From the NCBI GenBank assembly GCA_026197095.1, contig JAPHTF010000108.1:1-62933 (forward strand): a DNA stretch of 62,933 nucleotides, written 5' to 3'. Shown here one piece after another: positions 5,046 through 58,415 of this stretch. The first letter of the stretch is position 1, and every line of letters starts with the position of its first letter. This stretch comes from Gammaproteobacteria bacterium (GTDB taxonomy: Bacteria > Pseudomonadota > Gammaproteobacteria > UBA6429 > Thiohalophilaceae). Below the pieces are notes generated by a model, which worked only from the letters and a program-made list of their open reading frames with translations, was not told where the DNA came from and did not search any database. A program made the translations under genes and the position numbers.

Positions 5046-7778
5046 ATGTCAAAAAAATCAAACAAACCTTTTGTTCTTGTTGATGGATCATCTTATTTAT
5101 TTCGTGCTTACCATGCGATGCCGGGTTTTAGTAACTCTAAGGGAGAGCCAACGGGTACGGTTTATGGTGTAATTAATATGATTCGTCGCCTGTTAAAAGA
5201 TTATGACCCCGAACATATCGCCGTTGTGTTTGATGCCAAAGGTAAAACTTTCCGTAATGACATGTTTAAAGAATATAAAGCGAATCGCCCTCCGATGCCA
5301 GATGACTTGCGTCAACAAATTGAGCCTGTGCATGAAGTCATTAAAGCCATGGGATTACCTTTGCTATGTGTGCCTGGGGTGGAAGCGGATGATGTTATTG
5401 GTACGTTATCGGATCAAGCGACTGCAGCGGGCATCGATACGGTTATTTCGACCGGCGATAAGGACATGGCTCAACTGGTCAATCAACATGTCAGCCTGGT
5501 GAATACCATGACGGATGTTCATATGGACATTGAAGGGGTAAAAGAAAAATTTGGTGTGTCACCTGAACGGATTATTGATTATCTCGCATTAATCGGAGAC
5601 ACCGTAGATAACGTACCAGGAGTACCTAAAGTCGGACCTAAAACCGCGGTTAAATGGCTGGAATTGTATGATTCACTCGATGGCATAATGCAGCACGCGG
5701 ATGAGATCAAAGGTAAGGTTGGTGAAAACTTACGCGATTTTATGAGTCAATTACCGCTGTCACGTGATTTGGTAACAATTAAGTGTGATGTTGAGCTGGA
5801 AGAAAGCCCGGATTCCTTAACACGGCAAGATCCAGATAATGAAAAGTTAACCGAACTATATGGTCACCTGGAATTTAAAACCTGGTTAGCTGAAGCAAAA
5901 GCGAGTGGCAATACAAGTAACAGTGACAATTCAGCCTTCGCTAAAAAAACTGAACAAGAAGTTAAAGATATAACGGCAAATTACGAAACGATTTTTAGCC
6001 ATAAAGCGTTGGATAATTGGCTAAAAAAATTAACACAAGCAGAGTGCTTCAGTTTTGATTTAGAAACAACCAGCCTGGATTACATGCAGGCAGAAATTGT
6101 AGGAGTATCATTTTCCGTTAAAGAAGGTGAAGCGGCCTATGTCCCGGTTGGGCACGATTATTTAGATGCGCCGGTTCAACTTGATCGAAAAGACGTTTTA
6201 GAAAAATTAAAACCTTTATTAGAAGATAAAAAAGTTTGTAAGTTAGGTCAAAATTTAAAATATGACATGAATGTGCTCGGTAACTATGATATTCAGATGC
6301 AAGGTATCCAGCACGACACCATGCTGGCATCTTATGTTTTAGACAGTACCTTAAGACATAATATGGATGACATGGCTGTTCGCCATTTAAGTTACAGCAC
6401 CATTCATTATGAAGATGTGGCCGGTAAAGGCGCAAAACAATTAACCTTTAATCAGGTTGATATTGATACAGCCGCACCTTATGCCGCAGAAGATGCTGAT
6501 ATAACGTTACGCTTACACCAGATCTTATATCCACAGGTACAGGAAGTTAAATCGTTAGAAAAAGTTTATAGTGAAATTGAAATACCACTACTACCTGTAT
6601 TATCGCGCATGGAACGCAATGGTGTTTTGCTTGATGTTAATATGTTGGCGAAACAAAGCAAACAATTGACTCAGCGATTAAAAGAACTTGAACTGGAAAT
6701 CTATGAAATTGCAGGTGAAGAATTTAATATTGGTTCACCAAAACAACTGCAAGTCATTTTATTTGAAAAACTGGAATTACCGATCATTTCAAAAACACCC
6801 AAAGGACAACCATCAACCGCAGAGTCTGTATTACAAGAACTTGCGCATGACTATCCTTTACCCAAATTGATTTTAGAATACCGTAGTTTAAGTAAACTCA
6901 AATCAACCTATACAGATAAATTACCGAAGCAGGTCGAACCGAAAACAGGTCGGGTGCATACATCCTATCACCAGGCGGTTGCTGCAACAGGTCGGTTATC
7001 TTCTTCAGATCCAAACTTACAAAATATTCCTATTCGCACAGAAGAAGGGCGCCGTATCCGCCAGGCTTTTGTTGCAGCTCCGGGTTATAAAATGGTGGCA
7101 GCCGATTATTCGCAGATTGAACTGCGTATCATGGCACACTTATCCAGTGATAAAGGGTTGCTTGATGCTTTTGCAAAAGGCCTGGATGTGCATAGTGCCA
7201 CTGCGGCAGAAGTGTTTGCTGTGGCTACAGCGGACGTTACCAAAGATCAACGTCGTTCAGCTAAAGCGATTAACTTTGGTTTGATCTATGGCATGTCGGC
7301 TTTTGGCCTGGCAAAGCAGTTAGATATTACGCGCCCCGAAGCACAACAGTATGTTGACCTTTATTTTCAACGTTATCCAGGCGTGAAAAATTACATGGAG
7401 CAAACAAAAGAAAAGGCCAAAGAACAAGGCTATGTTGAAACTGTGTTTGGTCGACGTTTATATTTACATGAAATAAATGCACGCAATGGTATGCGTCGCC
7501 AGTATGCAGAACGCACCGCGATCAATGCGCCTATGCAAGGCACAGCAGCGGATATTATTAAACGTGCAATGATAAATTTAGATAAAGAAATTCAAAGTGG
7601 TGATTTAGACATGCATATGATCATGCAAGTACATGATGAATTGATATTTGAAATTAAAGAATCTCAGGTTGAACAAGCGATAAAACTGATCCGTGACAAA
7701 ATGGAATCAGCTGCTGAGCTAGATGTACCTTTAGTGGTTGATGTAGGTATCGGAATGAATTGGGATGAAGCTCATTAA
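5046..7778 (+). CDS. polA: DNA polymerase I
   Basis: This 910-residue polymerase serves Okazaki-fragment maturation and repair. Three domains are complete. The N-terminal 5'-3' flap exonuclease runs over about residues 1-290 (FVLVDGSSYLFRAYHA, GVEADDVIGTL, STGDKDMAQLV, GDTVDNVPGV). The 3'-5' proofreading domain begins near residue 325 with FDLETTSLD, so the catalytic DxE pair is intact. The polymerase domain carries DPNLQNIPIRTEEGRRIR, AADYSQIELRIMAHLS (about 685), RRSAKAINFGLIYGMS and QVHDELIFE (about 860). Length is close to the E. coli enzyme. It is divergent from the LOG-family gene, as is usual for polA in this neighbourhood. Confidence 0.99.
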   Translation: MSKKSNKPFVLVDGSSYLFRAYHAMPGFSNSKGEPTGTVYGVINMIRRLLKDYDPEHIAVVFDAKGKTFRNDMFKEYKANRPPMPDDLRQQIEPVHEVIKAMGLPLLCVPGVEADDVIGTLSDQATAAGIDTVISTGDKDMAQLVNQHVSLVNTMTDVHMDIEGVKEKFGVSPERIIDYLALIGDTVDNVPGVPKVGPKTAVKWLELYDSLDGIMQHADEIKGKVGENLRDFMSQLPLSRDLVTIKCDVELEESPDSLTRQDPDNEKLTELYGHLEFKTWLAEAKASGNTSNSDNSAFAKKTEQEVKDITANYETIFSHKALDNWLKKLTQAECFSFDLETTSLDYMQAEIVGVSFSVKEGEAAYVPVGHDYLDAPVQLDRKDVLEKLKPLLEDKKVCKLGQNLKYDMNVLGNYDIQMQGIQHDTMLASYVLDSTLRHNMDDMAVRHLSYSTIHYEDVAGKGAKQLTFNQVDIDTAAPYAAEDADITLRLHQILYPQVQEVKSLEKVYSEIEIPLLPVLSRMERNGVLLDVNMLAKQSKQLTQRLKELELEIYEIAGEEFNIGSPKQLQVILFEKLELPIISKTPKGQPSTAESVLQELAHDYPLPKLILEYRSLSKLKSTYTDKLPKQVEPKTGRVHTSYHQAVAATGRLSSSDPNLQNIPIRTEEGRRIRQAFVAAPGYKMVAADYSQIELRIMAHLSSDKGLLDAFAKGLDVHSATAAEVFAVATADVTKDQRRSAKAINFGLIYGMSAFGLAKQLDITRPEAQQYVDLYFQRYPGVKNYMEQTKEKAKEQGYVETVFGRRLYLHEINARNGMRRQYAERTAINAPMQGTAADIIKRAMINLDKEIQSGDLDMHMIMQVHDELIFEIKESQVEQAIKLIRDKMESAAELDVPLVVDVGIGMNWDEAH

Positions 7779-10152: not shown

Positions 10153-10344
10153 TGTTGCAGCTTTCAAACGATTAACTATAATTAAGTTCATAATTTATAT
10201 GGATTTATTAGTGATTTTTAATTTTTTTGGTTAAGTTTTTATAAAAATAGAAATAAGGTTTAAAAAGTAATAAGCTATTTAATAAAATATGCTTTAAACA
10301 CAGCTTTTTAATGAAATTTATCAGTATTAGTTGGGATGATTACC

Positions 10345-10920
10345 ATGCAATTTAAAAATATATTATTACTACTTAGCTCTGCATTATTTATTTTTGCCTG
10401 CTCAAGTACAAAAGCACCAGAGGAAAATGTAAGCTCTGCAAGTGTCGATTTAATGCAAAAAGGTTTCTTGTTGTCTCTGCCGGAAGAAGATGGTTGGCAA
10501 GTTGTAAAAAAAGGTGACTACAAGGTATTGTTAAGTAAAAAAGGTGCATCCGGTAGTTACACCATTCAGGCGCTTGTTGTCGCATTACCCACGTTTGAAG
10601 ATGATGATCAATTTTTAGAATTCATTAAAAATCGTATGGCTGAGAGTAGTAAAAAACACAAAGTATTAGAAAATAATACGGCAATGTATGCAGGCACCAA
10701 TGAAGTATGTGTGCAATATACAAGCAAAGAAGAAAGAAAATCTAAAACGGGGCAAGCACTGACTTTAGAAGTGGCAAGTTTCACATGCCGCCATCCTAAT
10801 AACCCCAATGCAGGGGTATATATGGCTTTATCAAAGAATTATGCGCCGGGTAACTCAGATGAAAATATGGCAGAAAAAGCGATTGAGCTTTTCAATCGCC
10901 TTTATTTCACTGAGCTGTAA
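10345..10920 (+). CDS. Putative lipoprotein of unknown function
   Basis: This roughly 191-residue protein has a lipoprotein signal: MQFKNILLLLSSALFIFAC, lipidation expected on the Cys before SSTK. The ATG at 10345 is chosen over an in-frame ATG at 10336 because GGGA lies at the right distance before it and the signal peptide then begins normally. The mature part is soluble and mixed alpha/beta with two cysteines (EVCVQY, SFTCRHP). I do not recognise the family. It follows the M48 gene after about 190 bases of A/T-rich sequence and probably has its own promoter. Confidence 0.72.
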   Translation: MQFKNILLLLSSALFIFACSSTKAPEENVSSASVDLMQKGFLLSLPEEDGWQVVKKGDYKVLLSKKGASGSYTIQALVVALPTFEDDDQFLEFIKNRMAESSKKHKVLENNTAMYAGTNEVCVQYTSKEERKSKTGQALTLEVASFTCRHPNNPNAGVYMALSKNYAPGNSDENMAEKAIELFNRLYFTEL

Positions 10921-11120
10921 AATTTACATCAGGAAAAATTCACATCAAAAAAGATTTAAATTAAGCCTTAAAGATTATCGGCTCTGTTGTCAGGGCCCGA
11001 TAATTTAACCTCCTTCTCCCCCTGCCACTTTCGTATTGAACACCCCTTATGATGGCTGTGACTGAATAATTACGAATTTCGTCGCCTGCACAACATATTT
11101 TTGAACTTTATAATGAACAC

Positions 11121-11259
11121 AGGGTCCCATGATTAGTGCTGATGCGCTCATTCTCACAACTCTCCCTTAGACGTGAGAATGTTTGGTTTGGTTCACCCCA
11201 ACCGAACTAAAGTAATTATCCCCCGGTTACGTAACCCTTTTCGTACCGGGGTTTTTTTT
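11121..11259 (+). ncRNA. Candidate small RNA 1, three hairpins with C-rich loops
   Basis: Three successive stem-loops are visible. CATTCTCAC (11149-11157) pairs with GTGAGAATG (11173-11181) around a 15-base loop containing CTCTCCCTT. TTTGGTTTGGTT (11182-11193) pairs with AACCGAACTAAA (11200-11211), with two G-U pairs, around the loop CACCCC. A terminator hairpin with eight T closes it. A TATAAT at 11109-11114 could be the -10 element, putting the 5' end near 11121; its -35 is weak. Loops with CUCCC are complementary to Shine-Dalgarno sequences, a common seed type in trans-acting sRNAs. The polA-engB interval holds Spot 42 in E. coli and ErsA in Pseudomonas, but I see no direct sequence match. 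Confidence 0.6.
11221..11259 (+). terminator. Strong intrinsic terminator
   Basis: CCCCGGTTACG pairs with CGTACCGGGG, one bulged T, followed by eight T residues at 11252-11259. It ends candidate sRNA 1; no protein gene precedes it within 300 bases on this strand. Confidence 0.85.
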
Positions 11260-11334
11260 GCTTTTTTCTCTTTCGAGGGTTCACAAAAGTTCACAAATCG
11301 TGACTTTAAAGTTGCGGGGTTGATGCCTATATTT

Positions 11335-11481
11335 ACTTTAACTTAATACTACTTTTTAATCCCTTGGTGGTATTGAGCGTCTGGTCCCCAATGCCAGACA
11401 AACTTTTACCCCGGAATGATAAGTATGAATCTTATTTTGTACTCTTCCCCATCCCAACCCCTATTTCCGGGGTTTTTTTTT
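11335..11481 (+). ncRNA. Candidate small RNA 2, hairpins with C-rich loops
   Basis: AATACTAC (11345-11352) pairs with GTGGTATT (11367-11374) around a loop containing ATCCCTT. GTCTGG (11379-11384) pairs with CCAGAC (11394-11399) around TCCCCAATG. A less structured C-rich tail with TTCCCC and ATCCC follows, then a terminator with nine T. The 5' end is uncertain; TTGATG at 11312 with TTAATA 17 bases later is a weak promoter candidate. The architecture parallels candidate sRNA 1, so the two may be a related tandem pair or parts of one longer RNA read through the first terminator. Confidence 0.5.
11456..11481 (+). terminator. Strong intrinsic terminator
   Basis: AACCCC (11456-11461) pairs with GGGGTT (11469-11474) around TATTTCC, followed by a run of T to 11481. 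An alternative pairing uses CCCCGG at about 11409 with CCGGGG. It closes candidate sRNA 2. Confidence 0.85.
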
Positions 11482-11787
11482 ACCCTTGAAACGTCCTGAG
11501 AATTTGAATTTCGTTACTTAATGAACCACTGCGCGTTTACCTCAGAACGGCCTTCGGCAGATCACCAGGTACTACTTGGCTTTGCTTAGGTCGCACAGTA
11601 TTACCCTAAACTGCTCCACACGTTCTGCATCGTTGTAAATTTACTCAAAATCATCACTTACTTTTTGTAAGTTCTAATTTTTCGTACAAATTTGCGCCTT
11701 GAGTTTTTCTAATCACAGGGTGTTTTAGCGAGTTGCAGAGAGCAAGTAGCCTGAGGGGATGGATATTCTTATCAAAATTGTTATGTA

Positions 11788-12972: not shown

Positions 12973-15210
12973 TTGTTAGGCCTTTTTACACAAGTATACA
13001 CATCACTGATGAATTATCGTTATACGCTTAAATTTTTTATTATACTAATATTAAGTCAGTTATTACTCATTAGTGTTGCCCACGCAGAGTCAGAATTACC
13101 CCGTTTTCTTAAGTCTATAACCAGCCAGGAAATTTTCCCGAATGCAGACAAGTTAGGAGATCCTATCGGTGATCCTCCCGTCGCCCCTGCTTATGAAAAA
13201 GGAAAGCAGGTTGGCCTCGTTTTTTTAACTTCTGATTACGTAAATACAATTGGTTATTCGGGTAAACCCATACACCAACTTGTTGCGATTGATATGCAAG
13301 GCATACTTAAAAAGGTGTTATTAGTCGAGCATCATGAGCCTATTGTTTTAATTGGTATCCCTGAAGAGCGTATTACTCGCGTGCTTAAAAACTATGAAGG
13401 TTTAGATGTGGGCGAATTGGTGCGTGGCACGCAACAACACCAGATTGATGCCGTTTCAGGTGCGACAGTGACCGTCATGGTCATGGATGACAATATTTTT
13501 CGTAGCGCCATTAAGGTTGCCCGAAATTATGGCTTATCAGGCTTGAAGGAAAAAACTAAGCAGTCCGCAGGGCCGATTGCTGCAGTCAATAAAGAGCTTG
13601 ATGTGATTAAAAGCTGGCAAGAGTTGATTGATGAAGGCTCTGTACAGCAATTAAAAATTTCTGTTGGGCAAATTAACAGGGCATATATAGAGGGTGGCAA
13701 TCAACTTGCGATTGATAATGCCGAAGACGGTAATGCAGATGAAGTTTTTATTGAGCTTTATGCAGCCATGGTATCCATACCCAGTATTGGTAGAAGTATT
13801 TTAGGTGAGAATGAATACAACAATTTAATGAAAAAAATACAACCTGGTGAGCAAGCTATTGTGCTAGCAGGTGATGGACGTTTTTCATTTAAAGGTTCTG
13901 GTTATGTTCGGGGTGGAATCTTTGATCGTTTCCAGGTTATCCAGGAAGACATTTCGGTTCGTTTTCATGACAGCTACCACAAGCGATTACGTAAGATTGC
14001 TGCAGACGGAGCACCTGAACTTAAAGATGTCGATTTATTTAGAATACCTGCAAATCTGAAATTTAATCCTGCAACACCCTGGATTTTGCAGTTACTGGTG
14101 GGTCGAGATGTGGGCCCGACGAGTAAAGTCTTTTTAACCTTTGACCTCAATTATCGTGTACCAGATACATACTTAAGCTTTACTGAAGAAGCGCCCTCTG
14201 TTGAAGATGAGGATCAGGTCTTGACGCAAAAAGCCGATCCTATATGGAAAAAAATGTGGGAGCTGAAAATATCAGAAGTTGTTGTTCTTGGTATTGCTCT
14301 TGTTATTTTGACCTCGATTTTCTTTTTTCAAGACTGGTTGGTTAAACGTCCTGTACTCACTGATCGTATTCGTGTGGGTTATTTGATCTTTACGCTGGTT
14401 GGCCTTGGTTGGTATTTAAATGCACAGCTATCCGTCGTTAATATTTTAGCGATGTTTAATGCCTTTGTGACGGGGTTTGATTGGAGTTATTTCTTAATGG
14501 AGCCTTTGATCTTTATTTTATGGGGTTCTGTTGCTGCGGCATTATTATTTTGGGGACGTGGTCCATATTGTGGTTGGTTGTGTCCCTTTGGTGCCCTGCA
14601 AGAATTGATTAACCGGGTGGCTAAAATATTTTCAATTAAGCAATTTACTATGCCTTGGGCTATCCATGAACGTATTTGGACGTTTAAATATTTGATTTTT
14701 CTTCTGCTCTTTGGCTTTTCTTTATATTCCCTGGATTGGGCTGAACGCCTGGCTGAAGTTGAGCCTTTTAAAACAGCGATTATTTTAAAATTTATTCGTG
14801 AGTGGCCTTATGTACTTTTTGCTTTGGCCGTTTTAATTCCGGGTATTTTTATAGAGCGTTTTTATTGTCGTTATTTATGTCCTTTAGGTGCAGCCCTGGC
14901 AATTCCAGGCAGAATGCGCATGTTTGCATGGCTCAAACGTTATAAAGAATGTGGCACGCCATGTCAGCGTTGTAGCAACGAATGTATGGTGCAAGCCATT
15001 CATCCTGAAGGGAATATTAATGTTAATGAATGTTTGTATTGTCTGCATTGCCAGGTGGTTTATTCAGATGATCACGCATGCCCCGTGGTTATACAGAAGC
15101 GCTTGAAAAGAGAGCGTCAAACAGCTCGTGCGGAGGCGTCAGTATTAGCTTCATCGGGAAACATAAAAGAAGAATCTGCAATTAAAATTGAAATAAATAA
15201 AAGTAAGTAA
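12973..15210 (+). CDS. nosR: NosR, flavin/iron-sulfur membrane protein for N2O reductase
   Basis: NosR is needed for nos expression and for electron supply to NosZ. The 745-residue protein has a signal sequence ending about VAHA, then a periplasmic FMN-binding domain with the flavinylation motif SGAT in DAVSGATVTVM (about residue 161). Further membrane helices run over about residues 430-640. Cytoplasmic polyferredoxin motifs follow: CGWLCPFGALQE and CRYLCPLGAA, then two Cys clusters (CGTPCQRCSNEC and ECLYCLHC). The start is a TTG: AGGAG sits 9 bases before it, while the in-frame ATG at 13009 has no ribosome-binding site. Covalent FMN attachment needs an ApbE/NosX protein, which is not encoded in this window. 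It is first in the nos operon. Confidence 0.96.
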   Translation: MLGLFTQVYTSLMNYRYTLKFFIILILSQLLLISVAHAESELPRFLKSITSQEIFPNADKLGDPIGDPPVAPAYEKGKQVGLVFLTSDYVNTIGYSGKPIHQLVAIDMQGILKKVLLVEHHEPIVLIGIPEERITRVLKNYEGLDVGELVRGTQQHQIDAVSGATVTVMVMDDNIFRSAIKVARNYGLSGLKEKTKQSAGPIAAVNKELDVIKSWQELIDEGSVQQLKISVGQINRAYIEGGNQLAIDNAEDGNADEVFIELYAAMVSIPSIGRSILGENEYNNLMKKIQPGEQAIVLAGDGRFSFKGSGYVRGGIFDRFQVIQEDISVRFHDSYHKRLRKIAADGAPELKDVDLFRIPANLKFNPATPWILQLLVGRDVGPTSKVFLTFDLNYRVPDTYLSFTEEAPSVEDEDQVLTQKADPIWKKMWELKISEVVVLGIALVILTSIFFFQDWLVKRPVLTDRIRVGYLIFTLVGLGWYLNAQLSVVNILAMFNAFVTGFDWSYFLMEPLIFILWGSVAAALLFWGRGPYCGWLCPFGALQELINRVAKIFSIKQFTMPWAIHERIWTFKYLIFLLLFGFSLYSLDWAERLAEVEPFKTAIILKFIREWPYVLFALAVLIPGIFIERFYCRYLCPLGAALAIPGRMRMFAWLKRYKECGTPCQRCSNECMVQAIHPEGNINVNECLYCLHCQVVYSDDHACPVVIQKRLKRERQTARAEASVLASSGNIKEESAIKIEINKSK

Positions 15211-15304
15211 AATTTTAAAACGAGAAGTAACTAAAAAAGAAAGAGAAAAATTCCGCTAAGGAATAAATATTTCTATATTTGGTAGACATAAAAAGGAGAG
15301 TGTT

Positions 15305-17227
15305 ATGAGTAAGCACGATGATAAAGAAGAAGTCAGTATCTCGCGTCGTCAGTTACTTGGTGGTTCTGCCAAGTTAGTCGCAATAGCAAGTGCTGCAAGT
15401 GTAGGCGGCGTTGCTGGCATGGGTATTATGACACCACAAGCTGCAGAAGCGGCTGTAAAAGCGAAGTACCACGTTGGACCGGGTGACCTGGATGAATATT
15501 ATGGTTTCTGGAGTAGTGGCCAGGGTGGTGAGTTACGTATTCTGGGTATGCCTTCAATGCGTGAATTAATGCGTGTTCCTGTATTCAATCGCTGCAGTGC
15601 ATCAGGTTGGGGGCAAACCAATGAGAGTCGCAAGATTTTGCGTGATGGTTTATTACCTGAAACCAAGAAGTTTCTTGATTCTGGTGGCCGGGGTGGCATT
15701 TGGACAAATGGTGATTTACATCATCCTCATATGTCATTCACTGATGGCACCTATGATGGCCGCTATTTATTTATGAATGATAAAGCGAATACACGTGTAG
15801 CACGTGTTCGTTGTGATGTTATGAAGGTGGATAAGATTACCGAAATCCCGAATGCTTCTGATATTCATGGTTTACGTCCACAAAAATATCCACGTACGGG
15901 TTATATATTTGCTAATGGTGAGCATCGTGTACCTATTCCTAACGATGGCAGTATTCTTGATGAGCCAGAAAAATATCATGCAATTTTCACTGCGCTAGAT
16001 GGCGATTCAATGGAAGTGGCATGGCAGGTTATGGTTGATGGTAACCTGGATAACTGTGATGCGGATTATCAGGGTCTCTACGCTTTTTCAACCTGTTATA
16101 ACAGTGAAGAGGGCGTTAACCTCAGCGGCATGATAGCTAATGAGCGTGACTGGGCTGTTGTCTTTGATATTAAAGCGATCGAAAAGGGTGTTAAGAACGG
16201 TGACTTTAAACGTATTCAAGGTGTTCCTGTACTTGATGGACGTAAAGGATCAAAATATACCCGTTATATACCTGTTCCAAATAGTCCGCATGGTTGTAAC
16301 ACTGCACCTGATGGTATACACGTTGTCTTCAATGGTAAGTTATCACCCACTGTTACAGTCATTGATGTAAGACGTTTACCGGATCTCTTTAAAGATAAAA
16401 TTAAGCCTCGTGATACTGTTGTTGCTGAACCTAAATTAGGTTTAGGGCCACTGCATACTGCATTTGATGGTAAAGGTAATGCTTATACAACCTTATTCCT
16501 TGATAGCCAGATGGTTAGCTGGAATATCGAAAAAGCCATTCAGGCTTATAAGGGTAAGAAGGTTGACCCGATTATTGATAAAGTCGATGTTCATTATCAA
16601 CCAGGTCATAACCATACCAGTATGGGCGAAACTAAAGAGGCCGATGGTAAGTGGTTAATCTCGTTAAATAAATTCTCGAAGGATAGATTTATTAATGTAG
16701 GGCCTTTAAAGCCAGAAAATGAACAGTTGATTGACATTAGCGGTAAGAAGATGAAGGTTGTTCATGATGGCCCGACTTATGCTGAACCCCATGATGTCAT
16801 TATTGTTCGTGCTGATATCGTTAATCCGGACTCACTGTGGACTAAAGGTGATCGTATGTGGGCGGACGCCAGTGCTCAGGCGAAAAAAGATGGCATTAAA
16901 TTAACTGAAGAATCTAAGGTCATTCGTGATGGTAACAAAGTTCGCGTCTATATGACTTCAGTAGCGCCTAACTTCAGCATGGAAAAATTCACTGTAAAAC
17001 AGGGTAACGAAGTGACTATCATTGTCAGTAACAATGATGCGATTGATGATTTAACACATGGCCTTACTATTGCAAACTACGGGATAGCAATGGAAATTGG
17101 ACCACAACAGACATCATCAGTGACCTTTACAGCTGATCGTGCCGGTGTTCACTGGTTCTATTGTCAGTGGTTCTGTCATGCGCTACATATGGAAATGCGT
17201 GGTCGTATGCTGGTTGAACCTGCTTAA
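15305..17227 (+). CDS. nosZ: Nitrous-oxide reductase, clade I (Tat-exported)
   Basis: This 640-residue periplasmic copper enzyme reduces N2O to N2. The N-terminus has a twin-arginine signal (SRRQLLGG), marking clade I. All seven CuZ histidine contexts are present: [44 protein letters not shown] and EPHDVI. The CuA site is intact in the C-terminal cupredoxin domain ([12 protein letters not shown], with the His of DDLTHGLT). AAGGAG precedes the ATG by a good spacing. It is preceded by nosR (about 94 bases) and followed by nosD. Nothing suggests inactivation. Confidence 0.99.
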
Positions 17228-17234
17228 TTATATT

Positions 17235-18566
17235 TTGTTATTGTTCAAGCAGAAAACAAATAATCCACTTGTTAGCCATTGGCTGGCAGGTGGATTGTTT
17301 TTTATATCAGCCGCATTTATTTCTTTTTCTGTTCATGCAGAAGAAATTAAAGTCACGCCGGGCAGTGGTAAGTTACAGGCTGCTATAAATTCAGCCCGTA
17401 AGGGTGACACGCTAATTCTTAAGCCTGGGATATATTCGGGTTCTATAAATATTGATCGTAGCCTGACACTTTTAGGAAGTCAGGACAGTATTATTGATGG
17501 AGAAGGAACTGGGCATGTTGTTGTCATATCCGCAGCCAATGTTCGGGTGAAAGGTTTCACTATCCAGCACTCAGGTAACAACTTGAATACTGAGGACAGT
17601 GCAATATTTGTAACCGTGAAAGGTGATAATGCACGTATTGAAAATAATTATTTTAAAAACAACCTGATTGGTGTTTATTTAAAAGGCCCAAAGTCCGCGA
17701 TTGTGAGTGACAATATTATTATTGGTAGTCAATTTCATCGCGTTAATGATCGCGGCAATGGTGTTTACTTATGGAACACACCTGGTTCAGTTATTAAAAA
17801 TAATGATATACGTTATGGGCGTGATGGCATATTTGTTAATGTCAGCCAAAACAATATTTTTGATGGCAACCGTTTAAGTGATTTACGTTTTGCCATTCAC
17901 TACATGTATACCAATAACAGTGAAGTTAAAAACAATGTTTCAATTAATAACAATGTGGGCTATGCCTTAATGTTTTCTCACCATATTGTTGCAAAGAATA
18001 ATCAATCAATTGGGGATAATGAACGAGGTTTATTTTTTAACTTTACCAATTACTCTACGATTGAAGGCAATAGCGTAAGTGGAGGCACAGAAAAATGTGT
18101 TTTTATTTATAATGCTAATTTTAATGCCATTAATAATAATTCATTTGCAGACTGTGACATTGGTATTCATTTTACTGCTGGATCTGAAAGTAATAAAATT
18201 TATTCAAATGCCTTTATTAATAACCGCACTCAGGTAAAGTACGTTGGCACCCGATATATCGAATGGTCTAATGCAGGTAAAGGAAATTACTGGAGTGATA
18301 ATGCTGCATTTGATATTGATAAAAATGGTATAGCCGATCAGCCGTATCGCCCAAATGATCTTGTTGATCAGATTGTTTGGCGTCACCCTATGGCAAAGTT
18401 ATTATTGAATAGCCCATCTGTACAAATATTAAAATGGGCGCAGTCTGAATTTCCGGGACTGCATCCGGGTGGTGTGACAGATAGCGTACCATTAATGTTA
18501 GCTCCAGAAATCAATAATGTTGTAAACAGTAAAGAAAAGCGAAAAGTAGAATTAATCAATGGCTGA
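17235..18566 (+). CDS. nosD: NosD, periplasmic copper-site maturation protein
   Basis: NosD, with NosF and NosY, forms the ABC complex that helps assemble the CuZ site of NosZ. The protein shows the right-handed beta-helix (CASH/PbH1) repeat pattern, with many N-I-I/N-N motifs, for example ADNARIENNYF-like turns over residues 90-330. A signal peptide ends at VHA before EEIKVTPG. No ATG gives a good start: the frame is open back into nosZ (ATG at 17139), but that would put the signal peptide about 35 residues in. TTG at 17235 or 17241 gives a normal signal peptide and is preferred, perhaps by coupling to nosZ translation. It overlaps nosF by 8 bases. Confidence 0.9.
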   Translation: MLLFKQKTNNPLVSHWLAGGLFFISAAFISFSVHAEEIKVTPGSGKLQAAINSARKGDTLILKPGIYSGSINIDRSLTLLGSQDSIIDGEGTGHVVVISAANVRVKGFTIQHSGNNLNTEDSAIFVTVKGDNARIENNYFKNNLIGVYLKGPKSAIVSDNIIIGSQFHRVNDRGNGVYLWNTPGSVIKNNDIRYGRDGIFVNVSQNNIFDGNRLSDLRFAIHYMYTNNSEVKNNVSINNNVGYALMFSHHIVAKNNQSIGDNERGLFFNFTNYSTIEGNSVSGGTEKCVFIYNANFNAINNNSFADCDIGIHFTAGSESNKIYSNAFINNRTQVKYVGTRYIEWSNAGKGNYWSDNAAFDIDKNGIADQPYRPNDLVDQIVWRHPMAKLLLNSPSVQILKWAQSEFPGLHPGGVTDSVPLMLAPEINNVVNSKEKRKVELING

Positions 18567-19506
18567 GAAAGAAGTTAGAGCTAACAATATTATTTCATTA
18601 GAATCGGTAAGAAAGCAGTATGGTAAAGATACAGTCTTACATGATATTAATTTTAATGTGCAGGCGGGTGAAAGCATTGTTTTAGTTGGCCATAATGGTG
18701 CGGGTAAAACAACTTTAATGAAATTGATGTTAGGTTTAACACGGCCTACCTCCGGAACGGTTGAAGTTTTAAAAGGTAATCCGGTTTTAAGTACAGCAGT
18801 AGAGCAACGTCTTTCATTAGGTTATTTACCAGAGAGTGTTGCTTTTTATGATGCAATGACTGGCCGGGAAGTCCTCAGTTTTTATGCTGCTCTTAAAGGT
18901 GCATCCCAGCAGGAGTGCAGTAATTTATTAGAGTTAGTTGGATTGAGTGATGCATCGAAACGAAAAGTAGCGACCTATTCAAAAGGGATGCGGCAACGGC
19001 TCGGTTTAGCACAAGCTATGTTGGGTGATCCTCAGTTATTATTTCTTGATGAACCAACCACAGGTCTTGACCCTTTATTAAGGCAACATTTTTATGAGTT
19101 GATTGATAAGCAACATAAAAAGGGTGCCACATCGATAATTTCATCTCATGCCTTAAGTGAAGTGGAAGCAAGAGCAAATCGTTTTGTCATTTTGAAAAAA
19201 GGTGTTCTGGTGGCTTGTGGAACATTAGATGAGCTTTATCAGCAAGTTAGTTTACCCACACGTATAAATTTAAAAGTGCAGGCCGGGCAGGCTTCTGTTG
19301 TTGCTGAACGTTTAGGTTCAGATGCGCGTATTCAGAAAGTGAACGAGCTTGATAAAGATGGCTTAACCTTATTGTGTAGTAAACAGGAAAAAATGCCTTT
19401 AATTCGTTACATCAGTAACCTGGGTGAGGTTGTTCAGGATATGCAGGTGATCCCTCCTCGACTCGATGAAATCTATAGTTACTTTATGAGCGGGGCAACA
19501 GCATGA
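18559..19506 (+). CDS. nosF: NosF, ABC transporter ATPase for N2O reductase maturation
   Basis: This 315-residue cytoplasmic ATPase pairs with NosY. Walker A is GHNGAGKTTLMKL (about residues 37-49), the signature is YSKGMRQRLGLAQAM, and Walker B is LLFLDEPTTGLDP, followed by the switch His in SSHALSE. The C-terminal roughly 100 residues are the usual NosF-type extension. Its ATG lies inside the end of nosD, and its stop overlaps the nosY start (ATGA), so translation is coupled across nosDFY. Confidence 0.96.
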   Translation: MAEKEVRANNIISLESVRKQYGKDTVLHDINFNVQAGESIVLVGHNGAGKTTLMKLMLGLTRPTSGTVEVLKGNPVLSTAVEQRLSLGYLPESVAFYDAMTGREVLSFYAALKGASQQECSNLLELVGLSDASKRKVATYSKGMRQRLGLAQAMLGDPQLLFLDEPTTGLDPLLRQHFYELIDKQHKKGATSIISSHALSEVEARANRFVILKKGVLVACGTLDELYQQVSLPTRINLKVQAGQASVVAERLGSDARIQKVNELDKDGLTLLCSKQEKMPLIRYISNLGEVVQDMQVIPPRLDEIYSYFMSGATA

Positions 19507-20330
19507 AAATGATCTGGATCCTCGCACTTAAAGAGTTACGCGATGGTTTGCGAAATCGCTGGATAGCATCTGCCATTTTATTACTGGCAACACTAGCCAT
19601 TGTTTTATCGTTAATGGGTTCAGCACCAACGGGCTCAGTAAAAGTAAGTGCGCTCGATATTACGGTCATTAATCTTGCCAGTTTAAGTGTATATTTAATT
19701 CCCCTTATTGCATTAATGCTGTCGTTCGATGCCCTAGTGGGTGAGTTTGAACGAGGTACCATGTTGTTACTACTGACTTACCCGGTGACACGGTGGCAAG
19801 TTATTATGGGTAAATTTGCTGGTCATGTATTGATTCTCTTTATTGCTATTTTTGCAGGTTATGGCCTTGCTTTATTATTTATGGTGGTGATGAGTGGAGG
19901 TGATTTTGCAGGTTGGCAAGCTTATTTTACCATGATGACGAGTTCGCTTTTACTTGGCGCGGTATTTGTTGCCCTGGGTTACCTGGTGAGTGTCCTGGTT
20001 AAAGAGAGAGCCACAGCAATAGGAAGTGCTATGGGTTTATGGTTAATTTTTGTTGTCTTATATGATCTGCTTTTATTCGGTGCATTATTACTTGATAAGC
20101 AACAGGTGATAGGGCAGAAATTATTTTCAACATTAATGCTCATCAGCCCGACGGACAGTTATCGTATTTTGAATCTCAGTATGTCTGAGGGTGTGAGTCA
20201 GTCTGCCGGTATTGCAGGCATAGCAAGTAATGCCGGTATGAGCACAGAGCTCTTACTGAGTGTTATGTTGTTATGGGTCATTATACCGTTAACAACCACG
20301 CTATATCTTTTTCAGCGACGCGAGCTCTAG
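19503..20330 (+). CDS. nosY: NosY, ABC-2 type permease for N2O reductase maturation
   Basis: This 275-residue inner-membrane protein has six hydrophobic segments and the ABC-2 pattern of a large periplasmic-facing start followed by FDALVGEFERGTMLLLLTYPVTR. It is the membrane partner of NosF, joining the ATPase to periplasmic NosD. It overlaps nosF by 4 bases. The length is typical. Confidence 0.95.
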   Translation: MKMIWILALKELRDGLRNRWIASAILLLATLAIVLSLMGSAPTGSVKVSALDITVINLASLSVYLIPLIALMLSFDALVGEFERGTMLLLLTYPVTRWQVIMGKFAGHVLILFIAIFAGYGLALLFMVVMSGGDFAGWQAYFTMMTSSLLLGAVFVALGYLVSVLVKERATAIGSAMGLWLIFVVLYDLLLFGALLLDKQQVIGQKLFSTLMLISPTDSYRILNLSMSEGVSQSAGIAGIASNAGMSTELLLSVMLLWVIIPLTTTLYLFQRREL

Positions 20331-20379
20331 TCTTAAATTCACAATTTTAAGTCTTAAATAAATTTAATGGGTAATCATT

Positions 20380-20868
20380 ATGTATAAATTTCTTATATTG
20401 TTTTTAGGCGTATTTCTGGTGGCTTGTGAAAAAGCCCCTCCAGCAGAAGTGCCGGTTGCACAAACTCTCACACGTGAAGCCAATGGTTATTATTGCTTAA
20501 TGACGGTGGTTTATCATGATGGACCCAAGGGGCAGATTATTCTCGATGATGGCAAAGTATTGTGGTTTACATCCGTGCGGGACACGATTTCATTTACTTT
20601 GTCACCCGAAGAACCTAAAAACATTGCTGCTATCTATGTGAATGATATGGCTGATGCAGATTGGGAGAAACCTGGATTCGATAACTGGATAGATGCACAT
20701 ACTGCCTGGTATGTTTTGGGCAGTAATAAAGCTGGCGGAATGGGTGCACCAGAAACAGTGCCTTTTTCAACTAAAGCAAAAGCTGAAGTTTTTGTCGCTA
20801 AACATGGTGGAACAATTCACAAATTTGATGCGATTCCAAAAGATTATATTGTGAAAACAGCCAGTTAA
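20380..20868 (+). CDS. nosL: NosL, copper-binding lipoprotein
   Basis: This 162-residue lipoprotein has the signal MYKFLILFLGVFLVAC, lipidated at the Cys. NosL binds Cu(I) and delivers it for NosZ assembly. The mature part carries the conserved YYCLMTVVYHDGPKGQI segment with a Cys-x-Met pair, and later MGAPETVPFSTKAKAEVF, both family hallmarks. It follows nosY after 49 bases and is the last nos gene here. Downstream, a GGAGC/GCTCC hairpin near 20910 lacks a T-tract, so the terminator is unclear. Confidence 0.94.
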   Translation: MYKFLILFLGVFLVACEKAPPAEVPVAQTLTREANGYYCLMTVVYHDGPKGQIILDDGKVLWFTSVRDTISFTLSPEEPKNIAAIYVNDMADADWEKPGFDNWIDAHTAWYVLGSNKAGGMGAPETVPFSTKAKAEVFVAKHGGTIHKFDAIPKDYIVKTAS

Positions 20869-20999
20869 TTTTCACAAAGGTGCTTTTATTTAGCCTGAAT
20901 CTATTTTGGAGCTATCATGCTCCGGGGCCATAGGAATAGTATAAATCTATCCTGCTGCCTGGCTTCTCATAGAGCCTGCTCTCTCTTGGCAACAGGTTA

Positions 21000-21617
21000 T
21001 TAGGTCGGGAAATCTAGCCACTGATCGAGCACTGATTGCGCTTCTTCTAACCCCGTGCCTTTGAGTGAGGAGAAGAGTTGAACGCTGACATTGGCCAGTT
21101 CAGCAATGTCACGTTTTACCTTTAGGAGTGAGTTTTGAGCTGCCCCACGCTTGAGCTTGTCGGCTTTAGTCAGCAAGATATGGACAGGCATATTAACGTG
21201 TATGCTCCATTGCAGCATTTGTTGGTCAAATTCGGTTAAGGGGTGGCGTACGTCCATTAACAGGATAAGTCCTTGTAAAGATTGACGTTCTCGCAGATAT
21301 TTTTCCAGTTGTATGGCCCACTCCTGCTTTACTTTATCGGGAACCTTGGCAAAGCCATACCCCGGTAAATCGACCAGGCGTCGATCATCGTCAAGACGGA
21401 AAAAAACCAGGTGCTGGGTGCGGCCGGGCGTCTTACTAATACGGGCCAGTGATTTCTGGCAGGTTATCCGATTCAAAGCACTGGATTTACCGGCATTTGA
21501 GCGCCCGGCAAAGGCCACTTCGCGACCAATATCTTCAGGGGCCTGTTCAGGTTTAGGTACACTTTTCTCAAACTGTGCAATATTGTAACGAGCGGGGTTG
21601 TTTTTAGACTTGGTCAA
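21000..21617 (-). CDS. engB: Ribosome-biogenesis GTPase EngB/YsxC (YihA)
   Basis: This 205-residue essential-type GTPase acts in large-subunit ribosome assembly. The G motifs are complete: [14 protein letters not shown] (G1), [12 protein letters not shown] (G2), [11 protein letters not shown] (G3) and LLTKADKL (G4). A short N-terminal extension of about 15 residues precedes the core. It is encoded opposite to the nos operon and divergent from the cytochrome c5 gene. In Pseudomonas it sits between polA and the c5/c4 genes; here the nos block is interposed. Confidence 0.97.
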
Positions 21618-58338: not shown

Positions 58339-58415
58339 TGGCGCGCCCGACAGGAGTCGAACCTGTGACCCCTACCTTCGGAGGGTAGTACTCTATCCAT
58401 CTGAGCTACGGGCGC
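58339..58415 (-). tRNA. tRNA-Arg (anticodon CCG)
   Basis: On the minus strand the acceptor stem GCGCCCG pairs with CGGGCGC, followed by G and an encoded CCA. The D-arm is AGCTCAGATGGATAGAGT, and the anticodon stem is CTACC/GGTAG with loop CTCCGAA (anticodon CCG, codon CGG). The T-arm CAGG-TTCGACT-CCTG is standard. The total of 77 bases including CCA is normal. Confidence 0.97.

Follow-up and report, generated by a model that had tools for sequence, protein, structure and literature searches.

In Xanthomonas, sX13 (RF02232) is a single-copy small RNA (sRNA) encoded adjacent to polA and composed of three hairpins with CCCC/CCCCC loops; these C-rich loops were shown experimentally to repress mRNAs with G-rich motifs (PMC3771888), and its activity is independent of Hfq. 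ErsA (Pseudomon-1, RF01719) of Pseudomonas aeruginosa, also a single copy, is encoded between polA and engB, carries C-rich SL2 and terminator loops and has been described as an unstructured domain between two stem-loops; its transcription is sigma-22 dependent (PMC5819304). The gene for Spot 42 (RF00021) of E. coli shows the layout polA > sRNA > < yihA/engB, and the alpha-r7 sRNAs of the Alphaproteobacteria are described with a polA locus, three stem-loops and apical C-rich motifs (PMC3771888). The name of a further family, anti-hemB or Burkholderia RNA 7 (RF02837), implies an antisense to hemB. RF02837, RF02232 and RF01719 carry no clan label in Rfam release 15, and ErsA and sX13 were not mentioned together in the papers reached by a literature search that was weak on subscription journals.

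The DNA analysed here (the window, 62.9 kb) is part of a 3.1 Mb gammaproteobacterial genome that is 98.5% complete; the host family, Thiohalophilaceae in the NCBI taxonomy, includes Thiohalophilus thiocyanatoxydans. An initial annotation had proposed that a pair of neighbouring sRNA genes with C-rich loops lies between polA and engB, a proposal borne out by the folds, by conservation and by covariance-model matches. The finding is broader than that proposal, which missed both the paralogy of the two RNAs and their promoters.

Two structured RNAs downstream of polA

The locus is anchored by two genes:

5046–7778, + strand: polA, anchor gene
21000–21617, − strand: engB (yihA), second anchor gene, displaced by nos genes

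The sRNAs lie 3.4 kb from polA, with three ORFs before sRNA1 (for a DUF898 protein, an M48 peptidase and a product that matches no Pfam entry). Beyond sRNA2, a rubrerythrin-domain ORF on the opposite strand, a nosR-like ORF and nosZ precede engB, at a distance of 9.5 kb; in most relatives, engB is the immediate neighbour of the sRNAs. The interval given in the initial annotation was correct, although engB is not adjacent in the window. Order and strands (polA > sRNA > < engB) are kept in the window despite the larger gaps. In the stretch 12973–21617, inserted nos genes (the nosR-like ORF at 12973–15210, nosZ at 15305–17227 and the ORFs after it) split sRNA2 from engB.

Two other elements flank the pair. 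A hairpin (ATTATCGG...CCGATAAT) at 10973–11005, 3′ of the ORF at 10336–10920, may be the terminator of this ORF or the end of an element. Immediately 3′ of sRNA2, at 11488–11512, lies an element with the sequence GAAACGTCCTGAGRA, also present at loci L003, L006, L028 and L032; in genomes G004 and G007 two inverted copies of it stand about 105 bp from each other, resembling a small mobile palindromic element, of which the window shows one end only.

The predicted parts of sRNA1 are the following:

11135–11259 (approximately), + strand: sRNA1 (copy A), four hairpins plus T-tract, with a predicted transcription start near 11135
11135–11148, + strand: SL0, predicted 5′ hairpin AGTGC-TGAT-GCGCT, also in most class members
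11149–11181, + strand: SL1, from the fold, with loop AACTCTCCCTTAGAC
11182–11212, + strand: SL2, from the fold, with CACCCC in the loop
11219–11259 (approximately), + strand: SL3, terminator from the fold and the R2 model described below, with C-rich loop, GC stem and T-tract

Those of sRNA2 are:

11340–11481 (approximately), + strand: sRNA2 (copy B), three hairpins plus T-tract, with a predicted transcription start near 11340
11342–11377, + strand: SL1, from the fold and covariation in the genus, with loop TTTTTAATCCCTT
11379–11399, + strand: SL2, from the fold and covariation in the genus, with loop CCCCAAT
11409–11481, + strand: SL3, terminator from the fold, with GC stem, T-tract and a long loop containing TTCCCCATCCCAACCCC

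The loop strings that had been named in the annotation (CACCCC, ATCCCTT, TCCCC and others) are present in the sequence, and strong terminators, consisting of a GC stem and a T-tract, end both RNAs (11220–11259 and 11409–11481) as it had stated. Its segment did contain the sRNA genes but probably opened too early, at 11121, the likely start of sRNA1 being near 11135.

Both RNAs fold far better than their dinucleotide shuffles (z −4.5 for sRNA1 and −6.3 for sRNA2, with 0/200 shuffles as good in each case). Three hairpin loops of sRNA1 bear CCC, compared to a shuffle mean of 0.38, and only 0.2% of the shuffles reach three. For sRNA2 there are two such loops, a count that is not significant by itself because 10% of the shuffles match it; thus, the number of C-rich loops is beyond chance in sRNA1 alone, and the case for sRNA2 is one of conservation.

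Relatives across the Gammaproteobacteria

When the window was scanned with Rfam, the only sRNA models that touched both or one of the RNAs were anti-hemB and, more weakly, ErsA, all below threshold. The anti-hemB model matched both RNAs end to end with 21.9 and 21.4 bits (cut-off 49.5), and the ErsA model gave 18.4 bits on sRNA1 only (cut-off 50). The sX13 model (gathering score 50) had no match in the window, nor did that of Spot 42 at any threshold listed. Only one Rfam match in the window, a tRNA gene (58342–58415, − strand), exceeds its gathering score.

The anti-hemB model was also run over a class sample of 94 gammaproteobacterial genomes, one per family. Matches at E 0.01 were found in 54 of them, two above the cut-off of the model, and for 27 of the best 30, polA and/or engB is at most 1.5 kb away. 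The 28th of these 30 (L084) lies beside cytochrome-c-like and ResB-like genes, read from translations; this neighbourhood contains engB elsewhere, and engB was not found in the genome of L084.

A covariance model (R2) was built from 20 sequences, none of them from the family of the window. As likeness to anti-hemB, not position, governed the choice of these 20, the synteny of R2 matches is independent evidence. When RNAalifold derived the structure automatically (alignment A1, model R1), shifting loop lengths caused SL1 to be missed, and a structure given by hand was used instead on alignment A2. On a plain MAFFT alignment of the 20 sequences, 21 of the 24 pairs of the three-stem structure showed two-sided changes, a value reached by 0/500 shuffles.

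In the window, R2 matched sRNA1 at 11150–11262 (40.1 bits, E 4.7e-9) and sRNA2 at 11346–11483 (37.8 bits, E 2.1e-8), E-values that are rough owing to a short calibration, and these were the top two matches of the whole host genome. Over the 94 class genomes, 56 had a match at E 0.001; about half carry related RNAs. Of the 43 best matches of at least 40 bits, 38 have polA or engB no more than 2.5 kb away, and for 35 of these the layout is that of E. coli spf; the window is one of the five positional exceptions, as genes are inserted on both sides of its sRNAs. Outside the class, R2 found nothing at E 1e-5 in 200 genomes of the phylum. A copy away from polA occurs at locus L074 (G054:C44; 540–720 and 1501–1604), with about 0.8 kb between the sRNA copy and a 6S RNA gene.

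In individual minimum-energy folds, class members form SL0, SL1 (loop CCUCCCU), SL2 (loop CCCCAA) and a terminator whose loop is rich in C. The core CTCCC was found in the SL1 region of 28 of the 31 aligned members. The stems covary while the CCUCCCU and CCCCAA loops persist. Only the terminator stem is better conserved than the loops, contrary to the possibility, raised in the initial annotation, that only the terminators are maintained. Genes, structure, conservation and synteny are thus directly supported here.

Regarding the named sRNAs, the sX13 gene of genome G051 (103 bits, above the cut-off, 177 bp after polA) is exactly the best R2 match of that genome; weaker sX13 matches fall on R2 matches in G121, G107, G060 and G111, but not in G054 and G103. 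All four ErsA-model matches in the 94 class genomes coincide with R2 matches. As the anti-hemB, sX13 and ErsA models match the same loci below their cut-offs, the three Rfam families appear, from these sequence comparisons, to be one. The initial annotation found no obvious likeness to ErsA, which holds for the plain sequences; the covariance models, however, show the RNAs to be genuinely related to anti-hemB, sX13 and ErsA. Like sX13, the window RNAs combine a polA locus with hairpins bearing CCCC-type loops, and with ErsA they share the location, the C-rich SL2 and terminator loops and, as a motif at sRNA1, an ECF sigma promoter; in contrast to both, they form a pair, and a CCUCCCU hairpin takes the place of the unstructured domain of ErsA. 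The locus and loops that these RNAs have in common do not point to antisense action on hemB as the main role. The alpha-r7 sRNAs are likened by description only. On E. coli Spot 42, R2 gave the best match of that region, with 17.7 bits, mostly in the terminator and leaving the C-rich loops unmatched, so that as far as tested the relation to Spot 42 seems only positional. Individually, the window RNAs are members of an already known kind of sRNA.

Duplication and a probable promoter switch

Homologous sRNA pairs also occur elsewhere in the genus, in other species, and in many more genera of the family; Thiohalophilus thiocyanatoxydans has both copies. By sequence, sRNA1 and sRNA2 are tandem paralogues, sister copies of a gene duplicated in the window's own family, near Thiohalophilus. 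In congener G006 (L020) the copies face each other instead of being in tandem (1524–1659, + strand, and 1912–2026, − strand), and engB precedes copy B in the same orientation. Tandem copies exist in other families too, at L156 (G060:C49; 492–848) and L157 (G111:C7; 515–811).

Upstream of the two window genes, the following elements were found:

11103–11129, + strand: sigma-E/ECF-type promoter motif of sRNA1, GAACTT (11103–11108), N15, GTCCCA (11124–11129)
11280–11295, + strand: tandem box TTCACAAAAGTTCACA upstream of sRNA2, a motif with the layout of a CpxR site
11305–11333, + strand: sigma-70-like promoter of sRNA2, TTTAAA, 17 nt, TATATT, conserved in the genus

The motif GAACTT-N15-GTC, which has the form of an RpoE/AlgU-type promoter, has a single match in the window (11103–11126), 5′ of sRNA1; its −10 element there (GTCCCA) is a weaker version of the one found in relatives (GTCATA). 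With its last T left free (GAACT-N16-GTC), the motif precedes 18/23 copy A genes in the family of the window, as well as 15/29 class genes at the exact spacing and 19/29 at a relaxed one (shuffled mean 0.02–0.04). It is absent upstream of the copy B genes, including sRNA2. Both tandem copies at L156 and L157 retain sigma-E-like promoters; therefore, the promoter switch appears peculiar to the family of the window.

The pattern TTnACA-N4-TTnACA also has a single match in the window, at 11280–11295, and occurs in 14/18 copy B genes against 0/23 copy A and 0/29 class genes. The paralogy and these motifs are directly supported, and from the motifs we infer that copy A would be transcribed by an RpoE/AlgU-type ECF sigma factor and copy B under a CpxR-like or other OmpR-family regulator, CpxR being read solely from the layout of the motif. 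Read on the opposite strand, TTnAC-N5-TTnAC becomes GTnAA-N5-GTnAA, which is the CpxR spacing; the CpxR consensus is GTAAA-N4-8-GTAAA and the regulator is active in both orientations (PMC5063474). There is nevertheless a serious chance, if somewhat short of even, that with the same genes and mechanism copy B responds to another OmpR-family regulator (PhoB-, OmpR- or AmgR-like) or to a repressor rather than to a CpxR homologue. A tandem repeat with a 10-bp period, centred about 50 bp upstream of the predicted start, is typical of the whole family, other members of which likewise bind repeats of similar period, weighing against a firm assignment to CpxR, and the half sites are TTCAC or TTTAC, not strictly TTTAC.

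The fate of copy B after the duplication allows for a second alternative, in which sRNA1 is the working member, while sRNA2, a duplicate in decay or with a new function, would serve chiefly to titrate sRNA1, Hfq or some other RNA as a sponge or decoy, and not to repress mRNAs. Across the family, copy B scores lower and varies more than copy A (16–47 bits with R2, many genomes) and has lost its C-rich loops in several members. Against this, the SL1 and SL2 loops of sRNA2 and most of its terminator loop are nearly invariant over five species of the genus, while 99% of the pair cells of its stems stay paired and four pairs show two-sided changes. As the loops are kept while the stems covary, and the promoter box is kept in 14/18 copies, these sequence criteria place sRNA2 under selection; its loops are similar in kind to those of sRNA1, and a mere decoy is improbable.

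The copies of one congener differ in another way. In G004 (L032), copy A (2546–2634) lacks both the SL1 C-rich loop and GAACTT-N15-GTC and thus seems, from its sequence, to be decaying; its copy B is intact.

It is very improbable that the hairpins are just intrinsic terminators or 3′ UTR structures of upstream ORFs (10336–10920) and not independent sRNA genes. They do follow ORFs on the same strand and have terminators at their ends, but a conserved promoter lies directly 5′ of each RNA, conservation extends to the loops and to the stems other than the terminator, the RNAs persist where the neighbouring ORFs differ and their relatives sX13 and ErsA are independent transcripts. That they encode a small protein, as suggested by the spfP annotated in E. 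coli spf (SpfP of Spot 42) and by chance short frames in each copy, is hardly credible and was rejected, since no start codon or frame common to copies of either type was found.

Proposed function

The reading that we favour, and consider probable, is that sRNA1 and sRNA2 are tandem paralogous trans-acting sRNAs of the polA-locus family, whose C-rich loops block G-rich ribosome sites, with copy A under sigma-E and copy B under an OmpR-family, most likely CpxR-like, regulator. A rigid row of hairpins would present unpaired pyrimidine loops (CCUCCCU, UCCCCAA and the C-rich terminator loop). The loops resemble the anti-Shine–Dalgarno sequence at the 3′ end of 16S rRNA and may pair with the G-rich ribosome-binding regions of target mRNAs, much as the C-rich loops of sX13 act on G-rich motifs, so that translation of the targets would be blocked during envelope stress. 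Copy A would be transcribed by the envelope-stress ECF sigma factor of RpoE/AlgU type, whereas copy B, having lost that promoter, would be switched on by the response regulator. Targets of this kind are predicted, and so is the use of Hfq, which the host genome encodes.

The hfq mRNA, a target of sX13, was considered as a candidate and ruled out, as no G-rich site was found at the start codon of hfq in the host genome.

As far as the literature search, weak on subscription journals, can tell, three things are new: the joining of these RNAs across the class, their sigma-E promoter, and a tandem pair in which one copy has changed its promoter. We propose tentatively, as a possible but rather doubtful generalization, that a single ancient RNA of the Gammaproteobacteria, driven by sigma-E and bearing anti-Shine–Dalgarno loops, goes locally by the names anti-hemB, sX13 and ErsA, and that it was duplicated in the window's family, where a Cpx-type regulator captured the second copy. 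The present data predict sigma-E control for most members of the joined family, which would count among the more widespread trans-acting sRNA families on record. If this were true, the two main envelope-stress pathways would each own a sister sRNA, and the tandem pair would represent a natural experiment in promoter switching.
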